Assembly: GCF_900114085.1 (NCBI RefSeq)
Contig: NZ_FORU01000009.1
Location: forward strand, 1 to 64,000
Direction of reading: 5' to 3'
Origin: Myroides guanonis
Lineage (GTDB): Bacteria > Bacteroidota > Bacteroidia > Flavobacteriales > Flavobacteriaceae
Length of the DNA stretch: 64,000 bases
Under the pieces are notes generated by a model. That model was not told the origin of the DNA. It made no database searches and saw only the letters and a program-made list of their open reading frames with translations. A program made the position numbers and the translations under genes. Shown piece after piece: positions 1 to 45,051 of this stretch (positions are counted from its first letter, which is position 1; every line of letters starts with the position of its first letter).

Positions 1-345
1 TATTTTAGTAAATGGGATGCAGAGTTATTTGAACCTGAGTTTTTGGGGTTTGGGACTTTTCCGTCGGTACAAAAAGAACAGAAGTTTTCATTAAAAGATA
101 GCTTTTCTGTTCTAGGTGAAATAGGAGCTAAGCTTAAAATGGGCAGTGAAAATGCGCTTTATGTTGGATTCTTTGCTGACTATGATTTAGCTTCAGGGAG
201 TGATGAATCTAAACGATTGTTAGAGTATCAACCCATGGGAGAAACTCCTTTAAAGTTCAATAGCGTGATTGAAGCGGAGGAAGGAAAACAACGTTTGAAA
301 GCGTTTTATCTCGGATTAAAAGTTAGATATGCTTTTGGAATGTAA
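1..345 (+). CDS. Outer-membrane beta-barrel protein, C-terminal end (5' truncated by window edge)
   Basis: The reading frame is open from base 1, so this is the end of a larger gene and not a 100-residue protein; a TTG at 43 is internal. The visible 114 residues alternate hydrophobic and polar residues in short strands. They finish with LGLKVRYAFGM, the kind of aromatic-rich last strand used by outer-membrane barrels of the OmpA/PorT-like type. The gene converges on the peroxidase gene, with a strong shared hairpin terminator between them. The family cannot be named from this fragment. Confidence 0.6.
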   Translation, partial: YFSKWDAELFEPEFLGFGTFPSVQKEQKFSLKDSFSVLGEIGAKLKMGSENALYVGFFADYDLASGSDESKRLLEYQPMGETPLKFNSVIEAEEGKQRLKAFYLGLKVRYAFGM

Positions 346-404
346 TTTAGAATTTAGAAACATTAAGTAAAGATACGGTTTTGCGACAGAAACTAGTATG
401 ATTG

Positions 405-437
405 AAAACGGCTTGAGTTTTAAACTCAAGCCGTTTT
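405..437. terminator. Bidirectional intrinsic terminator
   Basis: A near-perfect palindrome (core CGGCTTGAG / CTCAAGCCG) is flanked by an A run on the left and seven T on the right. It lies between the convergent barrel gene ending at 345 and the peroxidase gene ending at 517, and can serve both. Confidence 0.85.
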
Positions 438-516
438 TTTATAGGCTATAAATGTTTTTGAAAGGGAACAGGTAATACATTCCTCAAATCTATCTCCTAA
501 TCTCATTTTATTAATC

Positions 517-1659
517 TTATTCCTTTGGGAAATCAGGTCTTTTCATTTTATAACGAGTTCCTGATAATGCTTCTAAAAAGGCTACTAATGATTTTTTTTC
601 ATCTTTAGTAAGCTCCAATGGTTTTAGCAATGAATCGGTTACTGGGTATAGAGGATCTGCTAGTTTCTTTTCAGGACTTGGATCTATCATATGCATTCCA
701 CTATTATAAATGTTTACAATGCCTTCTAAATCGTCGAAAAGTCCATTGTGCATCCAAGGTCTTGTATTTAACAAATCTCTTAGGGATGGTGTTTTAAATT
801 TACCGACGTCTTCGGGGTCCTTGGTTATAGTGAATCTACCCAAATCTTCATATTGTCTTTTGTAATAGGTGAGTCCTATATTGTGAAACTCATCGTCTGT
901 TAAGTCTTGTCCATGGTGGCAATTCATACATCTTCCTTTGGTTCTAAAGATGTGCATTCCATAAATCTCTTGGTCGTTAAGTGCTTTGTGATTACCATCA
1001 ATAAACTTGTCTACACGACTCGGTTGACTTTTGATGGTTCGTTGAAAACTTGCTAAAGCTTTTACGATACGCTCGTAGGTTATCTCGCCATCTCCATAGG
1101 CTTTTTCAAAATAGGGCTTGTATCCTTCTATTTTGTTGAGTTTGTTAGGTAGTTCTGCAACATCCATAGCCATTTCATTGTGTGCTGTTAATGGACTATG
1201 GGCTTGCTCTTCCAAAGAGGTTGCTCGTCCATCCCAAAAGAATATTTTTCTATTGGCTATATTAAAGAGACTAGGGGTGTTACGTGTTCCCATTAGATGG
1301 TCAGTTCCCATTGCAACTTTTCTTTTGTCTGTCCATCCAATTTCTGGATCATGACAGTTACTACACGATATTTGGTTTGATTTCGATAGCCTAGGGTCAA
1401 AAAAGAGTAGTTTTCCCAATTGTACCTTGGGTAAGTCTTGTGTTTTGAAATAATGGGTATCCTGTGGAATACTTGCCATTTCTTTCCAATTAATTCCTTC
1501 GTCTATGGTTGGTTGTGGCCATTGACTAATAGGTTTTTTATAGTTCTCTATTATGGACTGGTATTCTGGTTCATTGAAGTTCAGTATCTGGTCTAAGGGC
1601 GCAAAGCTCAAAAGTCCAAAAGCTGTAATAAGTGTTAGTAATCCTACTGTCTTCTTCAT
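517..1659 (-). CDS. Di-heme cytochrome c peroxidase (CcpA/MauG family)
   Basis: Periplasmic two-heme enzyme of the cytochrome c peroxidase/MauG superfamily; classical members reduce H2O2 with electrons from a small cytochrome. The 380 residues begin with a signal peptide (about 1-20). Two heme-binding CxxCH motifs are present: C99-x-x-C102-H103 and C244-x-x-C247-H248. A TPSLRDL stretch near 290 and M303 in PWMHNG resemble the region that ligates the electron-transfer heme. It is the last gene of the operon with the TonB receptor, DUF4876 and DUF6850 genes, starting 10 bases after the DUF6850 stop. Its role could be peroxide removal or an oxidative modification linked to whatever that operon imports; the sequence does not decide. 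Confidence 0.9.
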   Translation of the reverse strand: MKKTVGLLTLITAFGLLSFAPLDQILNFNEPEYQSIIENYKKPISQWPQPTIDEGINWKEMASIPQDTHYFKTQDLPKVQLGKLLFFDPRLSKSNQISCSNCHDPEIGWTDKRKVAMGTDHLMGTRNTPSLFNIANRKIFFWDGRATSLEEQAHSPLTAHNEMAMDVAELPNKLNKIEGYKPYFEKAYGDGEITYERIVKALASFQRTIKSQPSRVDKFIDGNHKALNDQEIYGMHIFRTKGRCMNCHHGQDLTDDEFHNIGLTYYKRQYEDLGRFTITKDPEDVGKFKTPSLRDLLNTRPWMHNGLFDDLEGIVNIYNSGMHMIDPSPEKKLADPLYPVTDSLLKPLELTKDEKKSLVAFLEALSGTRYKMKRPDFPKE

Positions 1660-1669
1660 TTCTTATTTC

Positions 1670-3205
1670 TTAAAAAGTAACTCCTATTGTAATGTTGATG
1701 TTCTGATTGTTTTCTTTTGTCTTAAACTGAATGGCATTCCAGTCAAATGTTACATAGACCATTGGAAAGTTAATAGGTTCAAATTGATAGGTTGCCGATG
1801 TTCCCCAATGTATATAATTTGTACTGTTGTATTTATAGTCTTGTTTTAACCACTCTTGTATACTTTCTTTTCTAGTTTCGGTTTGCAGCATATTGCTACT
1901 ATTGGAAACATTTCGATAGGTAAATGTTGGAGTGAGTTTCAATGCTGATTTAGTGTTTAATTTCTGGTAATAGTCAAATGTTAATCCTAGAAATTGATAT
2001 TGAAATTTTTGGGCAACTCCAGTTTCTTTTAATTGCTCAATTGTTTGCTGAATCTTGAAATAAGGTGTTATTGATAGGGTATAATGAGGTGCCGTAAAGG
2101 AATAAAAACCTTCAATAGTATGACTATTGTCTTCAAATTTATAGTTTTCTTTTTCCATTAAACGAATTAGATATTTATCGTTGTTTGAATACAGTATATC
2201 TATTCCCGAGTGATTTGTGATATTAGTTTGCCATCTTAGCCCCAATTGGTGTTGGTTCCAATGGAATAATTTTAACGCATGTATTTTAAGTTGTTCTTTT
2301 TTTAACTTATTTATATCATCACCTCCTTCATTTATCCCCATACTTGAAAAGACAAGTTTGTCTAAGTTATACTGTCCAAAAGATGCTCCTATAGCAAAGT
2401 TCTTGGCTTTGTTTTGAGCGATATTAAATCCTATTTCATATCCCAACTCTTCAAAAGTAACTTTGCTTGATTTATTGCTGAAATAATTATTCCATGTTCC
2501 CAATCCCTGCATTTGGTATAGAGAGGCCTGAGATGCTTCATTTGCAAATTTGACAGAAGTGTTTTGGGTGTATTTTGAAAGTAGTGTATAGACGTCAATT
2601 GACCAGTTTTTATAGATATCATATCCCAATCCCATTTTTAAATCTATAGTAGAAGAAATGCTTTTTGGACGAGGATCTCGGGTTCTATATCCCATATTAG
2701 CTTGATAGCCTAAACTTGCTCCTAATGACCACTTGTTTAGTTCCTTTGCATAGCCACCTTGAAAGGCGTAAGATTGAAATTTGGTGGTTGCTGCGGTTGA
2801 ATCTGCTATAACATAAGGGCGAATTTTATCGAAATCTAGACTGTTGTTCCATCGAATTCCTCCTTGTCGCTGATTTACATAACTTGCTTTTCCCCAAATG
2901 CTTGTTACACTATCTAGTTTTTGAAAGGAATGGGCATGAATACCCATTCCTTTATGATTGTTTCCTTCTTGTTTTTGATATAAATCTGCTTGTTTATTTT
3001 CTAATTGAGCGAATAAATCTGAATATGAAAAAGAGCTATAATGTACCTTGTTAGATGGGTTTTCATAATAATTCTTTAGAAATTCTAATTCCATTGAGGT
3101 TTTGCTTTTTTCTCTTTGAAAAAAGTTAAGACTGTCTTGTGCTTGAATATGGTTTATATTCAAACAACATGATAGAATCAGGAAACAAGTGGAAATATAT
3201 CTCAT
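1670..3205 (-). CDS. DUF6850-type outer-membrane beta-barrel protein
   Basis: A 511-residue secreted protein with a signal peptide ending near ...IQAQD (about residue 22). The body is rich in aromatic residues and alternating strands, and the C-terminus is an amphipathic strand ending in Phe (ITIGVTF), as in outer-membrane barrels. Size, architecture and the place behind a DUF4876 gene match what I remember as DUF6850, a Bacteroidota family without assigned function. Four bases separate it from the DUF4876 gene and ten from the peroxidase gene, so all are probably one transcript. A role as an accessory outer-membrane component of the uptake system is inference. Confidence 0.7.
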   Translation of the reverse strand: MRYISTCFLILSCCLNINHIQAQDSLNFFQREKSKTSMELEFLKNYYENPSNKVHYSSFSYSDLFAQLENKQADLYQKQEGNNHKGMGIHAHSFQKLDSVTSIWGKASYVNQRQGGIRWNNSLDFDKIRPYVIADSTAATTKFQSYAFQGGYAKELNKWSLGASLGYQANMGYRTRDPRPKSISSTIDLKMGLGYDIYKNWSIDVYTLLSKYTQNTSVKFANEASQASLYQMQGLGTWNNYFSNKSSKVTFEELGYEIGFNIAQNKAKNFAIGASFGQYNLDKLVFSSMGINEGGDDINKLKKEQLKIHALKLFHWNQHQLGLRWQTNITNHSGIDILYSNNDKYLIRLMEKENYKFEDNSHTIEGFYSFTAPHYTLSITPYFKIQQTIEQLKETGVAQKFQYQFLGLTFDYYQKLNTKSALKLTPTFTYRNVSNSSNMLQTETRKESIQEWLKQDYKYNSTNYIHWGTSATYQFEPINFPMVYVTFDWNAIQFKTKENNQNINITIGVTF

Positions 3206-3209
3206 TTAT

Positions 3210-4436
3210 TTAAGAATGGTTTATACCGTTTTTTAAACTTGGTTCTGCATCTCTATGAAAATCTTCTGTTGAATTGTTGGTGTCTTTGTAAAGGTTTCTT
3301 CCATTCTCCATAGTTCCTATTACTTTTCTACGTGCAGATTTTCCAAAACGGTTTGGGTCTGAACTCAAAACTCCTACACCTGTCCATCCGTTATCGATTG
3401 AAGTACCTAATGCATTGTGTTCCCATCCTTCTATTGGGGAGGAATTTATTCCATCTATAATCCATGCATTTGGAATTGTTTTGGCTGTTTTTGTAGTTAC
3501 ATTTCCTGTTGCATTCGTGTATTCATAAGTATAGGTATAACCTGCTAACCAGCTTTGAATGGTTATTTCTTGTGGGAAGCGCGCTAATGCGTAACTCTCA
3601 GCTCCTCTGTTGTGCATTAAAAACATATTATAATTCAAAGTACTGTAAATAACTTTTGCATTCGGTACGCTTGGATTGTCTACATCACCTAATTTTGGAT
3701 TATCTAGATTTGGATATTCATAATCTGCTCCGCTTAAGTCATAAGCTGGGATATTAGGTTGTTTGTGATTTGCTGCCATATCAGCAATTACAATAAAGTC
3801 TCCTGGCTCTATGTTTTTAGCGTTTTCATGTGGTATCATAAGTATCGCTTTAACAGTGAAGTCTGATTCTTTGATCTCTGGTGTAACGTGGTTGTTATTT
3901 GTTGTGATAAACTCTGATTGACAAATTAAAAGTCCTCCGGTGCTTAATACTTTATCTGTATTGTTCGTCAGCTTAAAATACTTACTGCTTACATAGGCTT
4001 TTCCTTCTAAGGTGGTTACTCCCGTGAAGAATACCTCTTCTATAATGAAGTCTTCGTTGAAACTTTTTACGAATAGTTCTATCGAGATATTGTGTGTGTC
4101 ATTGATTAAGTCAATACTGCTGTTTGCACCTGCTTGCATTTCTTCTCCTCCTCCTAGAATTACTTTTCCATCTGCAATTATCTTGTAGGAGCCTTTAGGA
4201 AGTTTAAATTCTTGAGAAAGGGATTGCATTTTTAATTGCGTCTCTTTTCCTGTGTTGGTTTCAAGAAAGCGAATATCCATTTCATGGATTGATTTGATTT
4301 CTTTACCATGTAGATTAACGGTTAAAATACTTTCTTGATTTTGATTGTTTACTATACTGTCATCACTACTACAAGAAGTGAATGTAGTTGAGAGGCTGAA
4401 TAAAGCAAAACTGAATACTAGGAGTTTTTTGTTCAT
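3210..4436 (-). CDS. DUF4876-type surface lipoprotein
   Basis: A 408-residue lipoprotein. A hydrophobic leader precedes a lipobox with C22 as the lipidated cysteine. C22 is followed by SSDDS, an acidic stretch like the Bacteroidota signal that sends lipoproteins to the outside of the outer membrane. Residues about 50-125 look like a beta-sandwich domain. Residues about 130-220 (SKYFKLTNNTDK, then PGDFIVIAD) recall a lamin-tail-like fold. The C-terminal RRKVIGTMENGRNLY and DTNNSTEDF stretches fit DUF4876. The gene lies directly after the TonB receptor gene, with a four-base gap. A likely role is a substrate-binding partner on the cell surface; this is inferred from position and lipidation, not shown. 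Confidence 0.75.
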   Translation of the reverse strand: MNKKLLVFSFALFSLSTTFTSCSSDDSIVNNQNQESILTVNLHGKEIKSIHEMDIRFLETNTGKETQLKMQSLSQEFKLPKGSYKIIADGKVILGGGEEMQAGANSSIDLINDTHNISIELFVKSFNEDFIIEEVFFTGVTTLEGKAYVSSKYFKLTNNTDKVLSTGGLLICQSEFITTNNNHVTPEIKESDFTVKAILMIPHENAKNIEPGDFIVIADMAANHKQPNIPAYDLSGADYEYPNLDNPKLGDVDNPSVPNAKVIYSTLNYNMFLMHNRGAESYALARFPQEITIQSWLAGYTYTYEYTNATGNVTTKTAKTIPNAWIIDGINSSPIEGWEHNALGTSIDNGWTGVGVLSSDPNRFGKSARRKVIGTMENGRNLYKDTNNSTEDFHRDAEPSLKNGINHS

Positions 4437-4440
4437 TATA

Positions 4441-7221
4441 TTAAAAGTTATAGGTTAATTCCATTCCAAAATAGGGGTCAGATTGATCTTTTCGGTAAAC
4501 TTTATTTCCATTGAAGGTATACGGACTGTAATAAGTGACAAGTTTATCTACAAACAAGGAAGCTCTTACTTCTCTATATATTCTTTTGGTTATCTTAAGA
4601 TTTACTCGCATGTCAAAATTGTAGTGTTTACTCATATTGTCTGTTGCAGAAACATCTCTAACCAACCACCTTTTATATGGGTCATTTCGATCGCTATCTA
4701 GAAAAGGTTGAATCATTCCATCTGTTCCGTAGTAATGTGTTGGAGCTGCTTCTCTGTTTGCTCTTTCTTCGTCTTTAAATAGTACTCCTTGAAAGGAAGT
4801 AGATATATTCATGTCTAAAGAAGGTAGATAAGTGTCTACTATAAAGTTGTAATTCAAGCCGGATTGTAAATAACCTACATCATTTTTATAGATTCCAACA
4901 TAGGGTATTGATTGTCCATTCTGAGAACGGTTTGGTTTTTCGTGTACGGGAATTGTATTGGTATAATCTACTTTAAACCATGCACCTGTTAGTGTGAATT
5001 TCGTATTTAAGGTAGAGAAGCGAGGGGAGTAGTAACCAAATTCGATTCCTTTTTTATGAGTGCCACTACCATTGGCATGTTGAGAACGACTTAGGAGTTC
5101 TGTTCTTTCTTCATAAGGTAGGTTATCAATAGAAGGTTTTTCTGTTGGGTCGATTATGTTAGAAGCATCATATCTTCTGTAACTGTGACTTAAAAAGTAG
5201 GTGTCATTTCTAAATCCATTAGCCATATTCTCGTCGAAATAGGTTATAAACCATTCGTGTTTTGCATAGCTAAAATCGAAGCGTATTTCTTTTTTAATGT
5301 TTTTTGCTGCAAGAAGGTCTTTATTGGTAACATCATCTATATAGGTCATGTAATTAACATAACGCAAATCGGGATTGTTATGATAATAACTCAACTGAAT
5401 GAAGTCTTTATATATTTTGTCTGGATATAGCATTATGGCGGTGGGTTGTTTGAAAAGTTCCCCATATCCCATTGTTATATCTGTTTTTAAAGCGTGTTTT
5501 CCAATTGTTATTTCAGGTAGTCCCCATTGAAAAATAAGTCGAGGCTCTACAAACACTTTTTTGCTTAAAGCATATGATTCTTCTAAACCTAACATTTTGG
5601 AAACGCGCATTCCTCCATATAAGTTTAAATCGTGATTGTTTATTTTTGCTTGTAGTTTATCTCCAACGAATAGCGCTAAGTTTTGATTAGCGGGAATATC
5701 CTTATAAGAACGGGGGCGCAGGCTGGATGAAGTTGAAGGTGGTTTAAGTGGATCAAACATTTCTCCTCTTCCGTAATTATGTCCGTATTTGAAATCAAGA
5801 CCCGCCTCGATATTGTGTTGTATAAAATGGGTGTTAAACTGTAAATTAGTTTCTAGTTTAGTGTTGATATCTATAGGTCTGCCTTCCGTTCTTGTATATG
5901 AAAGAAAGCTTATTTCTGGAAAATAGCCATCATTGACACCTTCTTCTGTAGTTATCGATACACTTGTGGGTCCGTTGTGTTGTACAAATATTCTTTGGTC
6001 GATATTCTCAATTCCTTGACGGATATTTGTTGTTAACTTGATGTTTTTAAACAAATTGTTGTCTGTGAAAATATATTCTAGATTATTTGATAGGCTTATC
6101 TTTTGACGGTTGTTTTTAAAATAATCCGTTTTGTCATATCCAGAGTCTGGATCTACTTTACTGTTATCTAGGTTAATATTATAGTCTAAATTAGATTTCC
6201 AAATCAATTTATTAATGCCATGATTATATGTTTTCTTAGATCGGATGGATGCCGCCACACGATGGTAGTTTTCATACAAATCCCTAGGGTCGGATTGAGC
6301 ATTTAAATAGTCTATACTGGTATTAATATCCCATGTTGGATTTATTGAAAAACCTTTTCCAAGGTAGTATGACTTACTAAACCCGTCGGTTTTTATTCTT
6401 CCTTGCCAATTGGTTTGTCCACTCTTTCTGTGAATAAGAATAAGTCCTGAAGTTAAATCGCCATAAGATACAGTTGGAATACCGCGAATGACTTCTACGC
6501 TTTCAATGTCATTGGTAGGTATGGTTCTCATATCTACTCCTTGATTGTTGTTTTCGAGTTTTTGAGCTACTCTTATGTTTCCATTTCCTATAGTTTGTGT
6601 ATTGTTGACTGCTGTAAGCATATCTACATCTGAGTTTAAAATCTGACCATCCATTACAAATTGAACTCCCATTGAGCTGGTGTTGTATTGGTTGGATTCT
6701 GTTCCAAATTCTCTGATTAATACTTTATTAGGATTGGTAAGGTTCGGGGATTTAGCTAGCCCACCAGGTAATAACTCCATAAGGTCTGCAAAACTAGAAG
6801 GCTGTAAGTGTTCCATTGCTTTTCTATTTATTATAGATTTAGTGGATAGGTCTTTTCCTTCTGTTGCCGTGATGATTACCTCTTCTAAGGTATTGTTTTC
6901 TTGTTGGAGTGCTATTTCAATTTCTTGATTTATAATTACTTCTAGTTGTATTTTTTTTCCAGTATAAGCAACATGAAAAAACTGTACTTGATAGTGTCCT
7001 TTATTTAATTGGAATGTAGCTTTTCCTTGTTCATTGGTTAAGTTGAAATTATTTATAGAATCATTCGAAATTTGAATGCTCACATTGGGTAAGTCTTTTT
7101 TGAAATCATCCACCAAATGAAATTGTATTTTCATCGATTCCTTTTCTTGTGCTTGTAGTTGAAAGAATAGAAATGAGAAGAGCAGTTGCAATAAAAACTT
7201 GGTACTTCTTTGGGGATACAT
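4441..7221 (-). CDS. TonB-dependent outer-membrane receptor
   Basis: Outer-membrane gated channel that imports a ligand using TonB energy; the ligand is unknown. The frame extends up to 7359, but the ATG at 7221 is chosen because it begins a signal peptide (MYPQRSTKFLLQLL..., cleavage near QAQ) and lies 21 bases after a TACTTTTG promoter element. The 926 residues show a carboxypeptidase-like regulatory beta-sandwich (about 30-115), a plug domain (about 120-270, with VEVIRGIPTVSYGDLTSG) and a long barrel ending in GMELTYNF. It is the first gene of a four-gene operon. Being a lone receptor next to DUF4876 rather than a SusD gene argues against ordinary glycan uptake and is compatible with metal or metal-chelate uptake. 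Confidence 0.9.
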   Translation of the reverse strand: MYPQRSTKFLLQLLFSFLFFQLQAQEKESMKIQFHLVDDFKKDLPNVSIQISNDSINNFNLTNEQGKATFQLNKGHYQVQFFHVAYTGKKIQLEVIINQEIEIALQQENNTLEEVIITATEGKDLSTKSIINRKAMEHLQPSSFADLMELLPGGLAKSPNLTNPNKVLIREFGTESNQYNTSSMGVQFVMDGQILNSDVDMLTAVNNTQTIGNGNIRVAQKLENNNQGVDMRTIPTNDIESVEVIRGIPTVSYGDLTSGLILIHRKSGQTNWQGRIKTDGFSKSYYLGKGFSINPTWDINTSIDYLNAQSDPRDLYENYHRVAASIRSKKTYNHGINKLIWKSNLDYNINLDNSKVDPDSGYDKTDYFKNNRQKISLSNNLEYIFTDNNLFKNIKLTTNIRQGIENIDQRIFVQHNGPTSVSITTEEGVNDGYFPEISFLSYTRTEGRPIDINTKLETNLQFNTHFIQHNIEAGLDFKYGHNYGRGEMFDPLKPPSTSSSLRPRSYKDIPANQNLALFVGDKLQAKINNHDLNLYGGMRVSKMLGLEESYALSKKVFVEPRLIFQWGLPEITIGKHALKTDITMGYGELFKQPTAIMLYPDKIYKDFIQLSYYHNNPDLRYVNYMTYIDDVTNKDLLAAKNIKKEIRFDFSYAKHEWFITYFDENMANGFRNDTYFLSHSYRRYDASNIIDPTEKPSIDNLPYEERTELLSRSQHANGSGTHKKGIEFGYYSPRFSTLNTKFTLTGAWFKVDYTNTIPVHEKPNRSQNGQSIPYVGIYKNDVGYLQSGLNYNFIVDTYLPSLDMNISTSFQGVLFKDEERANREAAPTHYYGTDGMIQPFLDSDRNDPYKRWLVRDVSATDNMSKHYNFDMRVNLKITKRIYREVRASLFVDKLVTYYSPYTFNGNKVYRKDQSDPYFGMELTYNF

Positions 7222-7242
7222 CTTATTTAGATTAATTCTTGG

Positions 7243-7250
7243 CAAAAGTA
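7243..7250 (-). promoter_or_regulatory. -7 promoter element of the TonB receptor operon
   Basis: TACTTTTG on the minus strand fits the Bacteroidota TAnnTTTG element and lies 21 bases before the ATG at 7221. The -33 region falls inside the palindrome at 7267-7288. Confidence 0.6.
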
Positions 7251-7266
7251 GGAAAGAATATTTTAT

Positions 7267-7288
7267 TAGCCTAATGTAATTTAGACTA
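7267..7288. promoter_or_regulatory. Candidate operator palindrome upstream of the TonB receptor operon
   Basis: TAGcCTAA-N6-TTAGaCTA is an interrupted palindrome with seven of eight arm positions paired. It starts 16 bases upstream of the -7 element and so covers the expected -33 site, where a repressor would block RNA polymerase. The regulator is unknown; a Fur-family gene lies at 44484-44948, but no link is shown. Confidence 0.4.
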
Positions 7289-7633
7289 GTTATATATAGT
7301 GCTTTACTAATAGAGATATAAAGTATAATGAGGTAAGTATTAGGGAAACTGTAAAGCATAGTTAGGGGGACATTAATTCTATCTTCTTAATTTGTTCCTA
7401 CATATAACCAGAACAGAACTTTTATAAACAATCATTTGGGCTGCATGAATAAATGTGATAGGAGACTTGTTGGTTTTAAAAGCAGCTTTCCCTCAATGTG
7501 TTTTCTAAGTAGCGCATTCATATATCTATATCTTTGCTCCCTAGCATATAACAGAGAAATCGAATAAACAAATTTGAACCTTCTCAAAATTAAAATTGGT
7601 AAATTGCGCCTTACTTATTAAAACACAGAAAAT

Positions 7634-10564
7634 ATGAGGTATTTGGGTTTGAAAAAGAATATCAAAATTCGAAGTCAACACATCAAAACTATTGGAGCAT
7701 TTATGGGGTTATTAGCTCTTTGTTTCAATACGAGTTCAGGTTATGGACAAAAAAAATCATTAGATCACAGTGTATATGATTCTTGGCAATCGATTGGTGA
7801 TAAAAAACTTTCGAATAATGGTTCTTTTTTATTGTATTCAGTAAATGTTCAAGAAGGGGATAAAACTTTGTTTATTGAAAGCATTAATAAAGGTTTCAAA
7901 GAACAAATAAATAGAGGCGAGCAAGCTGTTTTTACTTCAGATTCTAAGTTTTTGGTGTTTTCTATAAAGCCATTTTATAAAGATCAGAAGGCTGTGAAGG
8001 CTAAGAAAATGAAAGATAGCGAGTTGGTAAAAGATACATTGGGAATTTTGAATCTTGATTCAAAATCGATGGTAAAGATTCCAATGGTTAAAAGTTTTAA
8101 AATACCTGCTAAAGGTGGGGCTTTAATAGCTTATGTATTAGAAAAACAGAAGGATAGTCTGGTTAAAAGCGGTGGAGACAAAAAGGAAAAGAAAGATAAA
8201 AAGGAAGCCTCTACTTTAGTATATACAAATCTTGTAAAAGATTTTACGACTTCATTTGAGGATGTTGTGGATTTTTACTTTGATGAATTGGGAACCAGAT
8301 TGGTTTTCACTACTAAAACTACTATTAATGTTGATTCTGACAAGGTAGAGGACACTTCTATTGAAGGAAATGAGAAGTTGGATGCTGTTGACAAAGAAGA
8401 TAAAAAGGATGCTGAAAAAGCAAAAGAGAATACAGTATATCGCGTTTATAGTTATAGTACTCAGTCAAATAAACTTAGTTTGATTGCGGAGGATAGCATG
8501 CTATATACTCAATTTAATTTTGATAAAAAGGGTAAGCAATGGACATTCATAGCTACTAAAGATGACGAAAAAGCACTGGTTAAATCTTATACACTTTATT
8601 ATGTTTTAGGGGATAAGATTGTAAAAGAGCTTAATCAATTCGAAAAAGGAATGCCAAATGATTGGGTGGTTTCTGAAAATTACACTCCTGTTTTTAGTGA
8701 AAATGGTGAAAAACTATTTTTTGGAATTGCTCCTATGCCTATAGCTAAAGATACTACTCTTATTACTTTGGATCATGCGGTATTAGATATCTGGCATTAT
8801 AATGAGGATTACCTACAACCGCAGCAATTAGCGAATTTGGAAAAAGATTTAAAGAAAAGTTTTTTGGCTGTTTATGGTATTAAAAACAAACAATTCGTTA
8901 CTCTTGCTACAGACACTGTAAACAACAGTACATTGATGAATAAAGGAAATTCTGACTATGTGTTGAATAGGTCTGATTTTAGAAAACGCGTAGAAAGACA
9001 ATGGGATATTACAGGTAAACAGGATTATTTTTTAACAAATACTCAAACTGGAAAAGCAAAAACCGTTGTGGATAATTTAAGAGGCACGGCTTATGCTTCT
9101 CCTTTTGGAAATTACATTGTTTATATTAACCTTGAAACAGGTATTTGGTATAGTTATGATGTTAAAACGGAGAAAACAAAACCTTTAAATACTGGTTTAA
9201 ATGTTTCTTTTCTTGATGAAGAGTTTGATATGCCTGATGTTGCTTATTCTTATGGAATTAATGGATGGACAGATAATGATGCTACGGTTTTAATTAGAGA
9301 CCGATATGATATTTGGGAATTTGATTTAAAAGGTGATAAACCTGCAAGAATGATTACGAATGGTTTTGGTAGAAAAGAGAAAATTCAGTTGGAATTATTA
9401 CAGTTAGATGATGAAAAACCTTTTTACACAAGAAAAGAATTATTGTTAGCTGTTGGGTTTAATACCCTTACAAAAGATTCTGGGTTGTATAGTTTAAAAC
9501 TTCAAGGTACATCGGAACCAAAAATGTTGAGAAGCGATGCTTTTTTGGGCTATAATTCTTTGATAAAGGCTAAAGATGCGGAGGTATATGCTTATGTGAA
9601 ATCTTCTTTTGTGGATAGTCCTAATATATATACTACTGATTTAAAAACAGAGGTTCAACGCAGTGCTACGAACCAACAACAGATTGAATACAATTGGGGA
9701 ACTTCGGAATTAGTTCATTGGACTACTCCTAAAGGTTTTAATGCTACGGGTGTTTTGTTCAAACCAGAAAATTTTGATGCTACTAAAGAGTATCCGATGA
9801 TTGTTTATTTTTATGAAAAGCTGTCAGATAATTTGAATCGTTACGAAGCACCTGCACCAACACCTTCTAGACTTAATATTAGTTATTTTATCAGTAATGG
9901 GTATTTGGTTTTTACTCCTGATATTTCTTATATAGATGGATATCCAGGTAAATCAGCAGAGGAATATATTAATTCTGGAGTTGATTATTTAAAGGATTTT
10001 GCATGGGTAGATTCGAATCATATTGGGATTCAAGGTCAAAGCTGGGGAGGATATCAAGTGGCTCATCTTATTACAGTAACGGATCGTTATGCAGCTGCAT
10101 GGTCTGGAGCTCCTGTGGTTAATATGACTTCTGCTTATGGCGGTATTCGCTGGCAAACGGGTATGAGTAGACAGTTTCAATATGAAAAGACTCAAAGTAG
10201 GATAGGTGAGATTCTTTGGGATAATATTGATTTATATTTAGAAAACTCTCCATTATTTGCGATGAATAAAGTGACTACTCCTGTTGTTATTATGCACAAT
10301 GATAATGACGGTGCTGTTCCATGGTATCAAGGTATTGAAATGTTTATGGCCTTGAGAAGGTTGCAGAAGCCTGTATGGATGTTGAATTACAATGGAGATG
10401 AACACAATTTAATGAAGAGAGAGAATAGAAAGGATATTCAAATTAGACAGCAACAGTTTTTTGATCATTATTTAAAAGGAGCAGCTGCTCCAGTTTGGAT
10501 GGTTAAAGGTGTTCCTGCTACTATGAAGGGGAAAACGTGGGGATTTGAATTGGTGAATGAATAA
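7634..10564 (+). CDS. Secreted S9 family peptidase (prolyl oligopeptidase type)
   Basis: A 976-residue serine peptidase of clan SC, family S9, which cleaves peptides, often after proline or with dipeptide release. An N-terminal hydrophobic segment (about 18-37) reads as a signal peptide. A long propeller-like region with repeated short WD-like strands follows. The C-terminal alpha/beta-hydrolase domain starts near 720. The triad is visible as S803 in GQSWGG, D892 in HNDNDGAVPW and H924 in GDEHN. A Lys/Glu-rich insert (about 183-195 and 245-265) is charged and probably surface-exposed. The gene stands alone, with its own terminator downstream. Nutritional peptide breakdown in the periplasm is the likely role. 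Confidence 0.9.
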   Translation: MRYLGLKKNIKIRSQHIKTIGAFMGLLALCFNTSSGYGQKKSLDHSVYDSWQSIGDKKLSNNGSFLLYSVNVQEGDKTLFIESINKGFKEQINRGEQAVFTSDSKFLVFSIKPFYKDQKAVKAKKMKDSELVKDTLGILNLDSKSMVKIPMVKSFKIPAKGGALIAYVLEKQKDSLVKSGGDKKEKKDKKEASTLVYTNLVKDFTTSFEDVVDFYFDELGTRLVFTTKTTINVDSDKVEDTSIEGNEKLDAVDKEDKKDAEKAKENTVYRVYSYSTQSNKLSLIAEDSMLYTQFNFDKKGKQWTFIATKDDEKALVKSYTLYYVLGDKIVKELNQFEKGMPNDWVVSENYTPVFSENGEKLFFGIAPMPIAKDTTLITLDHAVLDIWHYNEDYLQPQQLANLEKDLKKSFLAVYGIKNKQFVTLATDTVNNSTLMNKGNSDYVLNRSDFRKRVERQWDITGKQDYFLTNTQTGKAKTVVDNLRGTAYASPFGNYIVYINLETGIWYSYDVKTEKTKPLNTGLNVSFLDEEFDMPDVAYSYGINGWTDNDATVLIRDRYDIWEFDLKGDKPARMITNGFGRKEKIQLELLQLDDEKPFYTRKELLLAVGFNTLTKDSGLYSLKLQGTSEPKMLRSDAFLGYNSLIKAKDAEVYAYVKSSFVDSPNIYTTDLKTEVQRSATNQQQIEYNWGTSELVHWTTPKGFNATGVLFKPENFDATKEYPMIVYFYEKLSDNLNRYEAPAPTPSRLNISYFISNGYLVFTPDISYIDGYPGKSAEEYINSGVDYLKDFAWVDSNHIGIQGQSWGGYQVAHLITVTDRYAAAWSGAPVVNMTSAYGGIRWQTGMSRQFQYEKTQSRIGEILWDNIDLYLENSPLFAMNKVTTPVVIMHNDNDGAVPWYQGIEMFMALRRLQKPVWMLNYNGDEHNLMKRENRKDIQIRQQQFFDHYLKGAAAPVWMVKGVPATMKGKTWGFELVNE

Positions 10565-10626
10565 TAAGTGAAAGGAATCGGTTGACGGGAAATCGGAGAC
10601 TGATTTGAAACTTTAATTTTATAGAA

Positions 10627-10664
10627 AGACCTCAAAGCTTTATTGTTTTGGGGTCTTTTTTTTG
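10627..10664. terminator. Intrinsic terminator after the S9 peptidase gene
   Basis: AGACCTCAAA pairs with TTTGGGGTCT, with one G-T pair, followed by a run of T on the plus strand. Confidence 0.75.
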
Positions 10665-10720
10665 TTTATACTATTTTGGAATTATGAAGGAACAAATTTT
10701 TTGTTGGTATGTACTACGAC

Positions 10721-11851
10721 TTAGATTAAGTATAACAAATAACCCAAAATAGCTCCTCCGAGCACAATAAATGCACTATTTATCTTTTTAAATTTCAACA
10801 CTAAAGCTATACTGATTAATGCTATTAAAAGCGCTCTCCAATCGGTTGCGGTTTCCATACCCATAGTTAAACATACAGAGATAATTAAGGCTACAGATGC
10901 AACATTAACGGCATCTAGGAAAACGGATAATCCTTTTGATTGCCTCATCTTTTTCATCAATGGATTTAATAGGCCTACTAAAATGAAGGAGGGTAAAAAA
11001 ATAGCAATAGTAGATACTAATGCACCACCAATTCCATTAATTTGATAACCTATAAATGTAACAGATGTGAAAACAGGGCCAGGAGTAAATTGTCCTACAG
11101 CTATTGCATCCATCAATTGTTGTCTTGTTAGTAAACCAGTTGTCACAAGTTCTGTATCCAAGAAGGCAAATAGTACATAACCACTTCCATAAAGTATAGA
11201 ACCGATTTTTAAAAATATCCAAAATAGTCTTGTATTAGTTTCAGATAGTAAGGAGAACTGAATTGTGTATGAAATCGGAAATAGAAAGAAACTGTTAATC
11301 GATTTTGACTTATTGTTTTGGATATAGTAAATGCTCATTATAAGTAAACCAGAACCAAACATCAAGTAAATTTCGCTGAACCCAAATAAAGATAGTACTA
11401 GAACTGCAATACCCATAAATGCTAGTTTTATTGATTTAATAGATTTCTTTGCTAGTGGTAAAATAGCACCAATAATAATAGCGATAATAGCTGGTTTTAT
11501 GCCATAAATGAAAGATTGTAATTGAGGTAAGTGACCATATTTTTGATATAGCCAAGCAAAAAATCCGGTAATAAAAACTGCTGGTAAAATAAAGCACAAT
11601 CCTGCAACTATTAATCCTTTCCAGCCTCCTTTATCATATCCTATGTGTATCGCCATTTCTGTACTATTAGGTCCAGGAATTAGATTTGTTGCTCCCAATA
11701 AATCTAGAAAATGTTGATCGCTCATCCATTTTCTTTTGACTACTACTTCTTGTTGCATCATAGCTATATGAGCGGCTGGTCCTCCAAAACCAATAAAGCC
11801 AAGTTTAAGAAAGAGTTTTGCTATTTCCTTTATTGGAATGTTTTGCTTCAT
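10721..11851 (-). CDS. chrA: Long-chain ChrA-family transporter
   Basis: A 376-residue inner-membrane protein of the CHR (chromate ion transporter) family; characterised members export chromate. Both halves carry the family signature. Half one has GFIGFGGPAAH near 17-27 and NLIPGPNSTE near 56-65. Half two repeats it with GSGYVLFAF and QFTPGPVFT. About ten hydrophobic segments are visible. This is the two-domain long form. It lies 142 bases beyond the end of a pair of half-size homologues on the same strand, with no clear terminator between them. Many CHR proteins in organisms not exposed to chromate have unknown substrates, so the chromate role is a family inference. Confidence 0.85.
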   Translation of the reverse strand: MKQNIPIKEIAKLFLKLGFIGFGGPAAHIAMMQQEVVVKRKWMSDQHFLDLLGATNLIPGPNSTEMAIHIGYDKGGWKGLIVAGLCFILPAVFITGFFAWLYQKYGHLPQLQSFIYGIKPAIIAIIIGAILPLAKKSIKSIKLAFMGIAVLVLSLFGFSEIYLMFGSGLLIMSIYYIQNNKSKSINSFFLFPISYTIQFSLLSETNTRLFWIFLKIGSILYGSGYVLFAFLDTELVTTGLLTRQQLMDAIAVGQFTPGPVFTSVTFIGYQINGIGGALVSTIAIFLPSFILVGLLNPLMKKMRQSKGLSVFLDAVNVASVALIISVCLTMGMETATDWRALLIALISIALVLKFKKINSAFIVLGGAILGYLLYLI

Positions 11852-11993
11852 TTTAAATAACTATTAAAGATAGACTAAACTTATATTGTAACGAGGTAAC
11901 AAATGGAATGGATTACTAAAGAATTGCAATATTACAATACTACGATTAGAAAAAGTGCTATTTGATGTTAAGCAAATGTTTCCTTTCGTACTT

Positions 11994-12542
11994 CTAATAG
12001 ACCAATAGACCTACTATTGCTGCAACAGCGAGTATTAATATTGGATGTAACTTAAATTTGACTGAACAAATAAATGCAATAATGAATAAAATGGGACTCA
12101 GTAAATCAATAAAGTTTTGGTTGTTTGTGAGAGATAAAGCTGCATATGCAATCAATGCTATACTCAGAGGTCTAATTCCAATCATTGCATATGCGAAATA
12201 CTTATTTGAACGGAATTTTAGAAAGAAATATGAAATAACAGAAATCATGATGAAAGAGGGGAGGCATAGAGCAATTGTTGCAACAAGTGCTCCGAGAACA
12301 GAAATAGTTGGAGAATATCCAGCATATTTTAAAGCGCTATAACCAGCGTAGGTCGAAGTATTAATTCCAATGGGACCAGGAGTCATTTGAGAGATTGCCA
12401 CTAGATCTGTAAATTCTTCTTTACTCATCCAGTGATTGTTTTCTACAACTTCTTCTTGTATTAGAGATAACATGGCATAACCTCCTCCAAAGCCAAATAT
12501 TCCAATCTTAGTGAAAACCCAAAATAGTTTAAAAAATATCAT
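11994..12542 (-). CDS. Short-chain ChrA-family transporter, subunit 2
   Basis: A 182-residue half-size CHR protein with one family domain. GIFGFGGGYAML (about 13-24) and QMTPGPIGI (about 52-60) are the family signatures, and about six hydrophobic segments are present. It follows the other half-size gene after two bases, so the two are probably translated together and pair into a functional heterodimer, as known for short-chain CHR proteins. The substrate is not evident. Confidence 0.85.
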   Translation of the reverse strand: MIFFKLFWVFTKIGIFGFGGGYAMLSLIQEEVVENNHWMSKEEFTDLVAISQMTPGPIGINTSTYAGYSALKYAGYSPTISVLGALVATIALCLPSFIMISVISYFFLKFRSNKYFAYAMIGIRPLSIALIAYAALSLTNNQNFIDLLSPILFIIAFICSVKFKLHPILILAVAAIVGLLVY

Positions 12543-12544
12543 TC

Positions 12545-13090
12545 TTACTTATTAAAATAGTTTGTCTTCTGTTTTATTTCATTATAAGCAACACCACCAA
12601 TACAACCAGCCACTACAATCCAAATAGGAGATACGTTTAAACCCCACATTAGAAATAATGCCAACATTGGTATGATTAGACTTTTTAAAGTCATTTTGTT
12701 CGCTTTAATGGCATTATAGCAAGGGGCAGCTATCAAGGCAACAACGACAGGTCTAAGTGCTTTAAAAGCTTTAGAAACATATAGGTTCTCTTGGAATTTA
12801 CTAAAGAATGCGGCAATTATAAGAATTATAAAAAATGGTGCTATAATTGTTCCTAAAGCGGCTATAATTCCCCCTTTTATTCCTGCTATTTTAAAACCAA
12901 CAAGGGCTGCAATATTAGTTGCAAATACTCCGGGTAATGACTCAGTTATAGCTAATAGTTCATAGAATTCATCTTGTGATAGCCAATCTCTAGAGACAAT
13001 CTCTTTTTCGATTAGAGGTATAACAGCATAACCACCACCAATAGTAAAAAGGCCTATTTTAGTAAAGAGGTAAAAGAGTTTAAATAGCAT
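12545..13090 (-). CDS. Short-chain ChrA-family transporter, subunit 1
   Basis: A 181-residue half-size CHR protein with GLFTIGGGYAVIPLIE near 13-28 and ESLPGVFATN near 51-60. Here the usual TPGP motif has become LPGV. About six membrane segments are visible. It is the first gene of the pair and likely supplies the opposite membrane orientation to its partner. The presence of both half-size proteins and a full-length homologue within 2.4 kb is unusual; see findings. Confidence 0.85.
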   Translation of the reverse strand: MLFKLFYLFTKIGLFTIGGGYAVIPLIEKEIVSRDWLSQDEFYELLAITESLPGVFATNIAALVGFKIAGIKGGIIAALGTIIAPFFIILIIAAFFSKFQENLYVSKAFKALRPVVVALIAAPCYNAIKANKMTLKSLIIPMLALFLMWGLNVSPIWIVVAGCIGGVAYNEIKQKTNYFNK

Positions 13091-44483: not shown

Positions 44484-44948
44484 TTAGTCGTTCTTAGTTT
44501 CAATGTCAGATTTCTCTTTTCTAACACCATATAAGTATAATGAATGATTGTGTATTTCAATGTTAAATACTTCTTCAATCGTTTTTTTTATTGTTTGAAT
44601 TCTTGGGTCACAAAATTCAATTACCTCCCCCGTATCGGTTAAAATGATATGGTCATGTTGTTTGTCAAAATATGACTTTTCGTAGTGCGCTTGATTTTGA
44701 CCGAATTGGTGTCTTCTCACCAAGGCACATTCTAATAGAAGTTCAATTGTATTATAAAGTGTCGCTCTACTAACCCGATAATTCTTATTCTTCATTTTGA
44801 TATATAGAGATTCAATATCAAAGTGATCTTCACTATCATATATTTCCTGTAAAATAGCATAGCGTTCTGGAGTTTTTCTATGTCCTCGCTCTTCTAAATA
44901 CTTAGTAAATACATTTTTAACTATTTCTTGGTTGTTCTGAGTTCCCAT
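44484..44948 (-). CDS. Fur-family transcriptional regulator
   Basis: A 154-residue winged-helix repressor of the ferric uptake regulator family. The N-terminal DNA-binding part (about 1-82) contains [14 protein letters not shown] and the recognition-helix region [13 protein letters not shown]. The C-terminal dimer and metal domain carries [15 protein letters not shown] (98-112), the usual metal site. The CxxC pairs that hold the structural zinc in many Fur proteins are absent; only C74 and C113 occur. It could be Fur, Zur or PerR. The TATATTTG element 20 bases upstream supports this start. purA follows. Confidence 0.9.
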
Positions 44949-44976: not shown

Positions 44977-45051
44977 AGGCTATTTTTTATTGTGATTATA
45001 GTTTTGAATTTAGAAATGTTTTAAATGAAAAAGTCTTCGATGAGCTATTCG

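Follow-up and report, generated by a model that had tools for sequence, protein, structure and literature searches.

We analyzed an operon of four genes on the minus strand of a 64,000-nucleotide stretch of the Myroides guanonis genome (contig NZ_FORU01000009.1, positions 1 to 64,000), hereafter the window. The genes run from 7221 to 517 and encode, in this order, a TonB-dependent receptor, a DUF4876 lipoprotein, a DUF6850 barrel, and a di-heme enzyme of the CCP/MauG family; they are separated by gaps of 4, 4, and 10 bases. The features of the locus were as follows:

4441..7221, minus strand: TonB-dependent receptor, open reading frame open to 7359; Plug PF07715 and CarbopepD_reg_2
3210..4436, minus strand: DUF4876 lipoprotein; Pfam PF16215
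1670..3205, minus strand: DUF6850 predicted outer-membrane beta-barrel; Pfam PF21012
517..1659, minus strand: di-heme CCP/MauG-family enzyme; Pfam CCP_MauG PF03150
7279..7297: Fur-box-like predicted operator ATTTAGACTAGTTATATAT, matching the Riemerella anatipestifer Fur box at 15/19 positions, about 57 bp before the start codon of the receptor gene
7225..7243: second, weaker half site of the Fur-box type, ATTTAGATTAATTCTTGGC (13/19, counted by eye), overlapping the presumed start of transcription
7243..7250, minus strand: putative Bacteroidota-type -7 promoter element TACTTTTG, read from the sequence
405..437: strong hairpin between convergent genes; fold -21 kcal/mol, z -8.1

The consensus of the -7 element in Bacteroidota is TAnnTTTG. 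The receptor gene likely starts at 7221 and not at 7359 because both the -7 box (7250..7243) and the Fur-box-like site (7279-7297) lie between these positions. The gene upstream of the operon (7634, S9 peptidase) runs divergently, and the hairpin at 405-437 is likely the shared terminator at the 3' end. Rfam elements were not found within positions 1-12000 of the window. None of the four products had a Pfam match to SusD, which sets the operon apart from SusC/SusD glycan loci.

In the TonB receptor, the Plug domain scored 42 bits, above the cut-off, and the N-terminal CarboxypepD_reg-like domain (CarbopepD_reg_2) scored 25 bits, below it. The length and family of the protein point to a beta-barrel; a PDB sequence search at E 0.01 retrieved no solved relative. 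The DUF4876 protein was recognized by PF16215 with 155 bits (cut-off 27.9) and consisted of an Ig/CnaB-like domain (approximately residues 34-124) and the DUF4876 region (approximately 126-408). In its lipoprotein signal, SSDD comes directly after Cys22, an arrangement that we take to resemble the surface-export signals of Bacteroidota. Its AlphaFold model (predicted local distance difference test, pLDDT, of 87) matched 4q1z (BT_1938) at Z 28.8 with a root-mean-square deviation of 2.6 over 264 residues, and fold matches beyond 4q1z lay mostly on the N-terminal Ig-like domain. The DUF6850 protein scored 291 bits with PF21012 (cut-off 27) and had no relative in the PDB sequence search. Its model (pLDDT 91) contained about 18 long strands and N-terminal helices; fold searches gave Z values of 14-18 to many porins, and Foldseek matched it to siderophore receptors (TonB-receptor barrels). 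Because of these matches of its model, we regard the DUF6850 protein as an outer-membrane barrel without a specific relative. These results agree with the earlier note on this DNA, which had joined the four genes into one operon by the same gaps, placed all four products outside the cytoplasm, proposed a second barrel, and reported the absence of SusD.

The di-heme enzyme (PF03150, 179 bits) carried two CxxCH motifs, C99-x2-C102-H103 and C244-x2-C247-H248. Both were conserved in an alignment of 28 orthologues together with Trp142, Gln152, Pro156, and Glu162, which presumably correspond, by their spacing, to Trp94, Gln104, Pro108, and Glu114 of bacterial cytochrome c peroxidase (BCCP). In an alignment to the structures of MauG and MbnH, Tyr318 coincided exactly with Tyr294 of MauG and the Tyr of MbnH; this residue was invariant in 28/28 orthologues and takes the place of the Met axial ligand of the high-potential heme by which classical BCCPs are defined. 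The gating His of BCCP was replaced by Thr in the window enzyme and was T, N, or H among the orthologues. Thus, Tyr318 is a putative axial ligand of the MauG type, and at this key position the enzyme appears, from the alignment, to be MauG/MbnH-like and not a classical cytochrome c peroxidase. Assignment to either named family was not obtained: the NCBIfam model TTQ_mauG (TIGR03791) gave 241.7 bits against a curated cut-off of 443.85, the MbnH family (TIGR04039) gave 207.7 bits against 362.85, and the partner is DUF4876 and not MbnP. The best solved relatives of the enzyme were BCCPs (1iqc, 167 bits).

The conservation of the operon was analyzed in four partly overlapping samples: phylum-wide, named genomes (close relatives), the genus of the window, and its family. 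The genome collection was scanned with a profile of six DUF4876 sequences, as one built from all 25 proteins diverged too much for this purpose. DUF4876 was present in 29 of 296 genomes of the phylum-wide sample, 34 of 299 of the genus sample, and 13 of 299 of the family sample; the operon is therefore accessory. The genes of the TonB receptor, DUF4876, and DUF6850 were adjacent in 141 of 142 loci (31/32 in the phylum, 79/79 in named relatives, 20/20 in the genus, and 11/11 in the family). The median gaps within the trio were 21 and 10 bases, and the median gap to the enzyme gene, where present, was 6 bases. Because the trio recurs so regularly, its order is not due to chance. The scattering of the genes among relatives, which the earlier note had named as a ground for rejecting the operon, was thus not observed.

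The fourth place behaved differently. A di-heme enzyme gene occupied it in 7/32 phylum-wide loci, 73/79 loci of named relatives, 19/20 of the genus (in the sole remaining locus, the contig ends there), and 5/11 of the family. The enzyme was nearly always present in Flavobacteriia and missing from most other lineages, where the trio was usually followed by genes of PepSY_TM, ATP-binding cassette (ABC) ATPase, and DUF4857 (e.g., L033), HEAT-repeat, YCF48/sortilin-type type IX secretion system (T9SS), or M16 peptidase proteins. Its presence switched state at least 7 times on the DUF4876 tree. Since the trio is kept together while the enzyme varies among lineages, the three genes constitute the system, to which the di-heme enzyme is added as a lineage-specific module. 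The co-occurrence expected for all four genes therefore holds for three, and the peroxidase, which the earlier note had treated as a fixed component and as a pointer to a redox-active ligand, is neither: as a lineage-specific fourth module it cannot define the ligand, and at the key heme ligand it is MauG/MbnH-like in place of a classical peroxidase.

Several variants of the locus were observed. The operon was duplicated in tandem in three genus-level relatives (L214, L219, L229), with approximately 300 bp between copies. Two paralogous operons with different gene neighbourhoods were found in several Chryseobacterium genomes or species (L083/L117, L085/L121, L087/L119, L082/L128), one of the subtype of the window (DUF4876 approximately 48-50% identical) and one of the Flavobacterium subtype (approximately 36-38%). 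In loci L053-L062, belonging to several non-flavobacterial lineages, HEAT-repeat proteins and YCF48/sortilin-type proteins carrying sorting tails of the T9SS lay beside the trio, which makes these loci a further version of the system. Horizontal transfer of the operon into the genome of the window was suspected, as its DUF4876 is 58-62% identical to that of Myroides and approximately 40% to that of Flavobacterium; descent within the two operon subtypes suffices to explain this.

The upstream regions pointed to iron control. When the regions upstream of 82 operons were searched blindly for 9-mers, TCTAAATAA ranked top, being found in 63 operons versus 1.7 expected, and TATTTAGAA, ATTCTAAAT, and AGTCTAAAT were also enriched. 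These 9-mers are halves of the Fur box ATTTAGAATTATTCTAAAT, predicted in R. anatipestifer and supported there by gel shift (PMC5609570). The half TTATTTAGA, enriched upstream of orthologous operons, is contained in the weaker site at 7225-7243, and the -7-type GCAAAAGTA was enriched there as well (22 versus 0.5 expected). The E. coli-type Fur box showed no enrichment in the 82-operon search, and the DtxR box was only slightly enriched upstream of the operons. All 77 testable flavobacterial operons reached at least 14/19 to the published Fur box (mean 15.9), whereas only 25% did so among 450 control genes taken from these loci (mean 13.0); in a second operon set, this score was reached by 31/34 operons versus 32/136 controls (24%). 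The best Fur-box-like site of the window operon, its predicted operator at 7279-7297, scored 15/19. In this second set, three family-level trio loci without the di-heme enzyme (L235, L241, L242) also had no Fur-box-like site (11-13/19), hinting, in small numbers, that the enzyme and iron control go together there.

The Fur regulon of this genome was read from selected stretches, with sites chosen as best-scoring or paired, so that the set serves as a consistency check and not as a census. Intergenic matches to the Fur box preceded a fur-family gene (window 44484-44948), hmuR with HmuY, a TonB receptor with PepSY_TM, a FecCD/binding-protein ABC transporter (divergent from a sufS-like gene), a gene of a siderophore-interacting protein (SIP), heme-biosynthesis-like genes, and class I fumarase. 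The fur-family gene (44484-44948, minus strand) had a Fur-box-like site with one mismatch at 45008-45026, about 60 bp upstream, which suggests autoregulation; its product is a plausible regulator of the operon. The hmuR-like TonB receptor and HmuY-family protein (L165, own genome C17:2701-10800), with two Fur-box-like sites directly upstream, form a separate heme-uptake operon.

Published transcriptomes of related loci agree with this regulation. On iron depletion, PG1019-22 of Porphyromonas gingivalis (DUF4876, TonB receptor, hypotheticals) rose 20.8-214.5 fold by RNA-seq, BT3625-33 of Bacteroides thetaiotaomicron (two DUF4876, TonB receptor, PepSY, ABC, DUF4857) 37-128 fold, and BT1933-39, home of the crystallised BT_1938, 3.5-7.4 fold (PMC10434189). 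A DUF4876 gene was among the most hemin-responsive in the relevant part of another study of P. gingivalis (PMC10470040), and the relevant passages of both papers gave no function to the DUF4876/TonB loci. DUF6850 was named in no paper found by the literature search, whereas DUF4876 was named in three; the operon is also absent from the main text of studies of iron in Elizabethkingia, Riemerella, and Flavobacterium. The metal chelate proposed as ligand in the earlier note can accordingly be kept and narrowed to iron by the Fur box and the published iron-depletion data. Its description of the system as undescribed is right insofar as no function has been assigned; however, the DUF4876/TonB part was already known from iron-starvation transcriptomes, and one DUF4876 structure (4q1z, BT_1938) was solved.

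On balance, we consider it reasonably probable that the genes constitute an operon for iron acquisition at the outer membrane that is controlled by Fur and includes a MauG-like oxidative module. The evidence for Fur control and iron acquisition is good, while the division of labour among the products is a proposal. The DUF4876 lipoprotein, on the cell surface, and the TonB receptor would capture an iron-bearing ligand (a ferric chelate, heme, or a host iron complex), which the receptor would import with TonB energy; the DUF6850 protein may accompany this complex in the outer membrane, either as a channel or as a barrel for docking. The periplasmic di-heme enzyme would carry out an oxidation tied to uptake, acting on iron, on the imported ligand, or on a partner protein, and the cell would depend on this step to use the ligand. 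Because a PepSY reductase-like/ABC module occupies the same place elsewhere, the role of the fourth gene is probably to release iron or hand it over; flavobacteria probably use an oxidative version of this role.

Several points weigh against this interpretation. The iron induction on record comes from relatives, and we infer both that DUF4876 lies on the surface and what DUF6850 and the enzyme do. Iron limitation is a poor time to make a di-heme enzyme. The score of the operon's own box, 15/19, was reached by approximately 9% of control genes, and sites with at most two mismatches were not enriched in this genome (87 versus 120 in the reversed control). The 77 scored operons are phylogenetically clustered, many being from Chryseobacterium, and do not represent independent events. 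We regard the system as real, conserved, and probably iron-related: TonB iron uptake with unusual partners.

The part played by the enzyme may be viewed in several ways. A possible, if tentative, view is that it acts like EfeB in EfeUOB, changing the redox state of iron or stripping iron from the ligand for the next transporter, which is a more specific version of the iron-acquisition reading. The Fur-box enrichment, the reductase-like PepSY modules in the place of the enzyme, and the almost constant pairing of EfeO/imelysin proteins with a heme peroxidase, in some cases one of the di-heme DUF1111 type (PMC3143127), agree with it. EfeUOB and imelysin/di-heme iron loci (e.g., BT2473-BT2482, which also has a porin) likewise encode an exported heme peroxidase that is linked to iron, next to binding proteins that are exported as well; however, no EfeU/FTR1 or imelysin was found among the four products, and the enzyme belongs to CCP_MauG and not to DyP or DUF1111, so that the operon is not an EfeUOB locus. 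More doubtful, and drawn by analogy, is a maturase that would oxidise Trp or Tyr of DUF4876, or of a barrel, and thereby form or adjust a binding site. MbnP/MbnH with MbnT, MopE/SACCP, and CorA/CorB similarly combine a MauG-like di-heme enzyme bearing the MauG-type Tyr with an adjacent partner protein. In MopE/SACCP the partner is matured by oxidation of Trp to kynurenine (PMC3621798), and a similar maturation was proposed for MbnP/MbnH. The Tyr318 alignment and the sub-threshold scores with TTQ_mauG (242 bits) and the MbnH family (208 bits) fit such a role, as does the company of a TonB receptor, a partner, and a di-heme enzyme in Mbn loci (PMC3621798). Unlike those systems, the partner here is DUF4876, the predicted operator is a Fur box and not a copper control, an additional DUF6850 barrel is encoded, and the enzyme falls below the MbnH cut-off (208 versus 363 bits). 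Trp325 of DUF4876 was considered as the substrate: it occurred in 99% of enzyme-bearing loci versus 31% of others (raw counts), but it was also kept in relatives without the enzyme, tree-aware pairs gave no support (p 0.5, underpowered), and no residue strictly followed the presence of the enzyme. Since Trp325 tracks the enzyme in raw counts and not in the tree-aware test, maturation is not supported beyond analogy, and this residue is only a lead. The full scheme, an iron-side counterpart of MopE/MbnP maturation in which a Fur-controlled MauG-like enzyme would oxidise an aromatic residue of DUF4876 or of barrel partners and thereby build a metal or ligand site, with the PepSY/ABC module used instead in other lineages, seems unlikely.

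An ordinary periplasmic scavenger of H2O2, i.e., a BCCP co-induced against Fenton damage during iron import, is rather unlikely as well, less so than that full scheme. The solved BCCP relatives and the conserved distal Gln/Pro/Glu set with the inter-heme Trp favour it; the invariant Tyr in place of the BCCP Met and the T/N/H at the gating His do not, and tight linkage to one transport operon would be odd for a general scavenger. Handling of another metal (Cu, Zn) or of an organic ligand, as in the Mbn/MopE copper systems, appears highly improbable. In methanotrophs, the combination of a TonB receptor and a MauG-like enzyme is indeed a copper theme, but the predicted operator is a Fur box common to iron genes, and relatives respond to iron and hemin. 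The operon is best read as the counterpart, on the side of iron, of the MopE/SACCP and MbnP/MbnH pairs, which are linked to copper. In its DUF4876/TonB part, it resembles PG1019-PG1022, BT3625-BT3633, and BT1933-BT1939, the iron-depletion-induced loci in which a TonB receptor adjoins DUF4876 lipoproteins; in the passages of the source on these loci (PMC10434189) no di-heme enzyme is reported, and PepSY, ABC, DUF4857, or HEAT-repeat genes are found instead. It shares an exported binding lipoprotein and a TonB receptor with HmuY/HmuR, Hfp, and XusABC, the iron-regulated systems of Bacteroidota for heme or siderophores; however, DUF4876 is neither HmuY nor DUF4374, and hmuR/HmuY is a separate operon in this genome.

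Elsewhere in the window (10721-13090, minus strand), a full-length gene of the chromate-transporter family adjoins a pair of half-size ones; two of the three were tested with Pfam.

The analysis connects iron starvation across Bacteroidota with DUF4876, DUF6850, and an enzyme of the MauG-like kind; this holds also for members from the gut and the mouth, in which related loci rank among the strongly iron-induced genes. It also provides a usable Fur-box motif for the annotation of flavobacterial iron genes. That MauG-type oxidative chemistry may serve iron uptake as it serves copper becomes a testable proposal; if the enzyme acts in maturation, an iron receptor complex would be made by post-translational oxidation.

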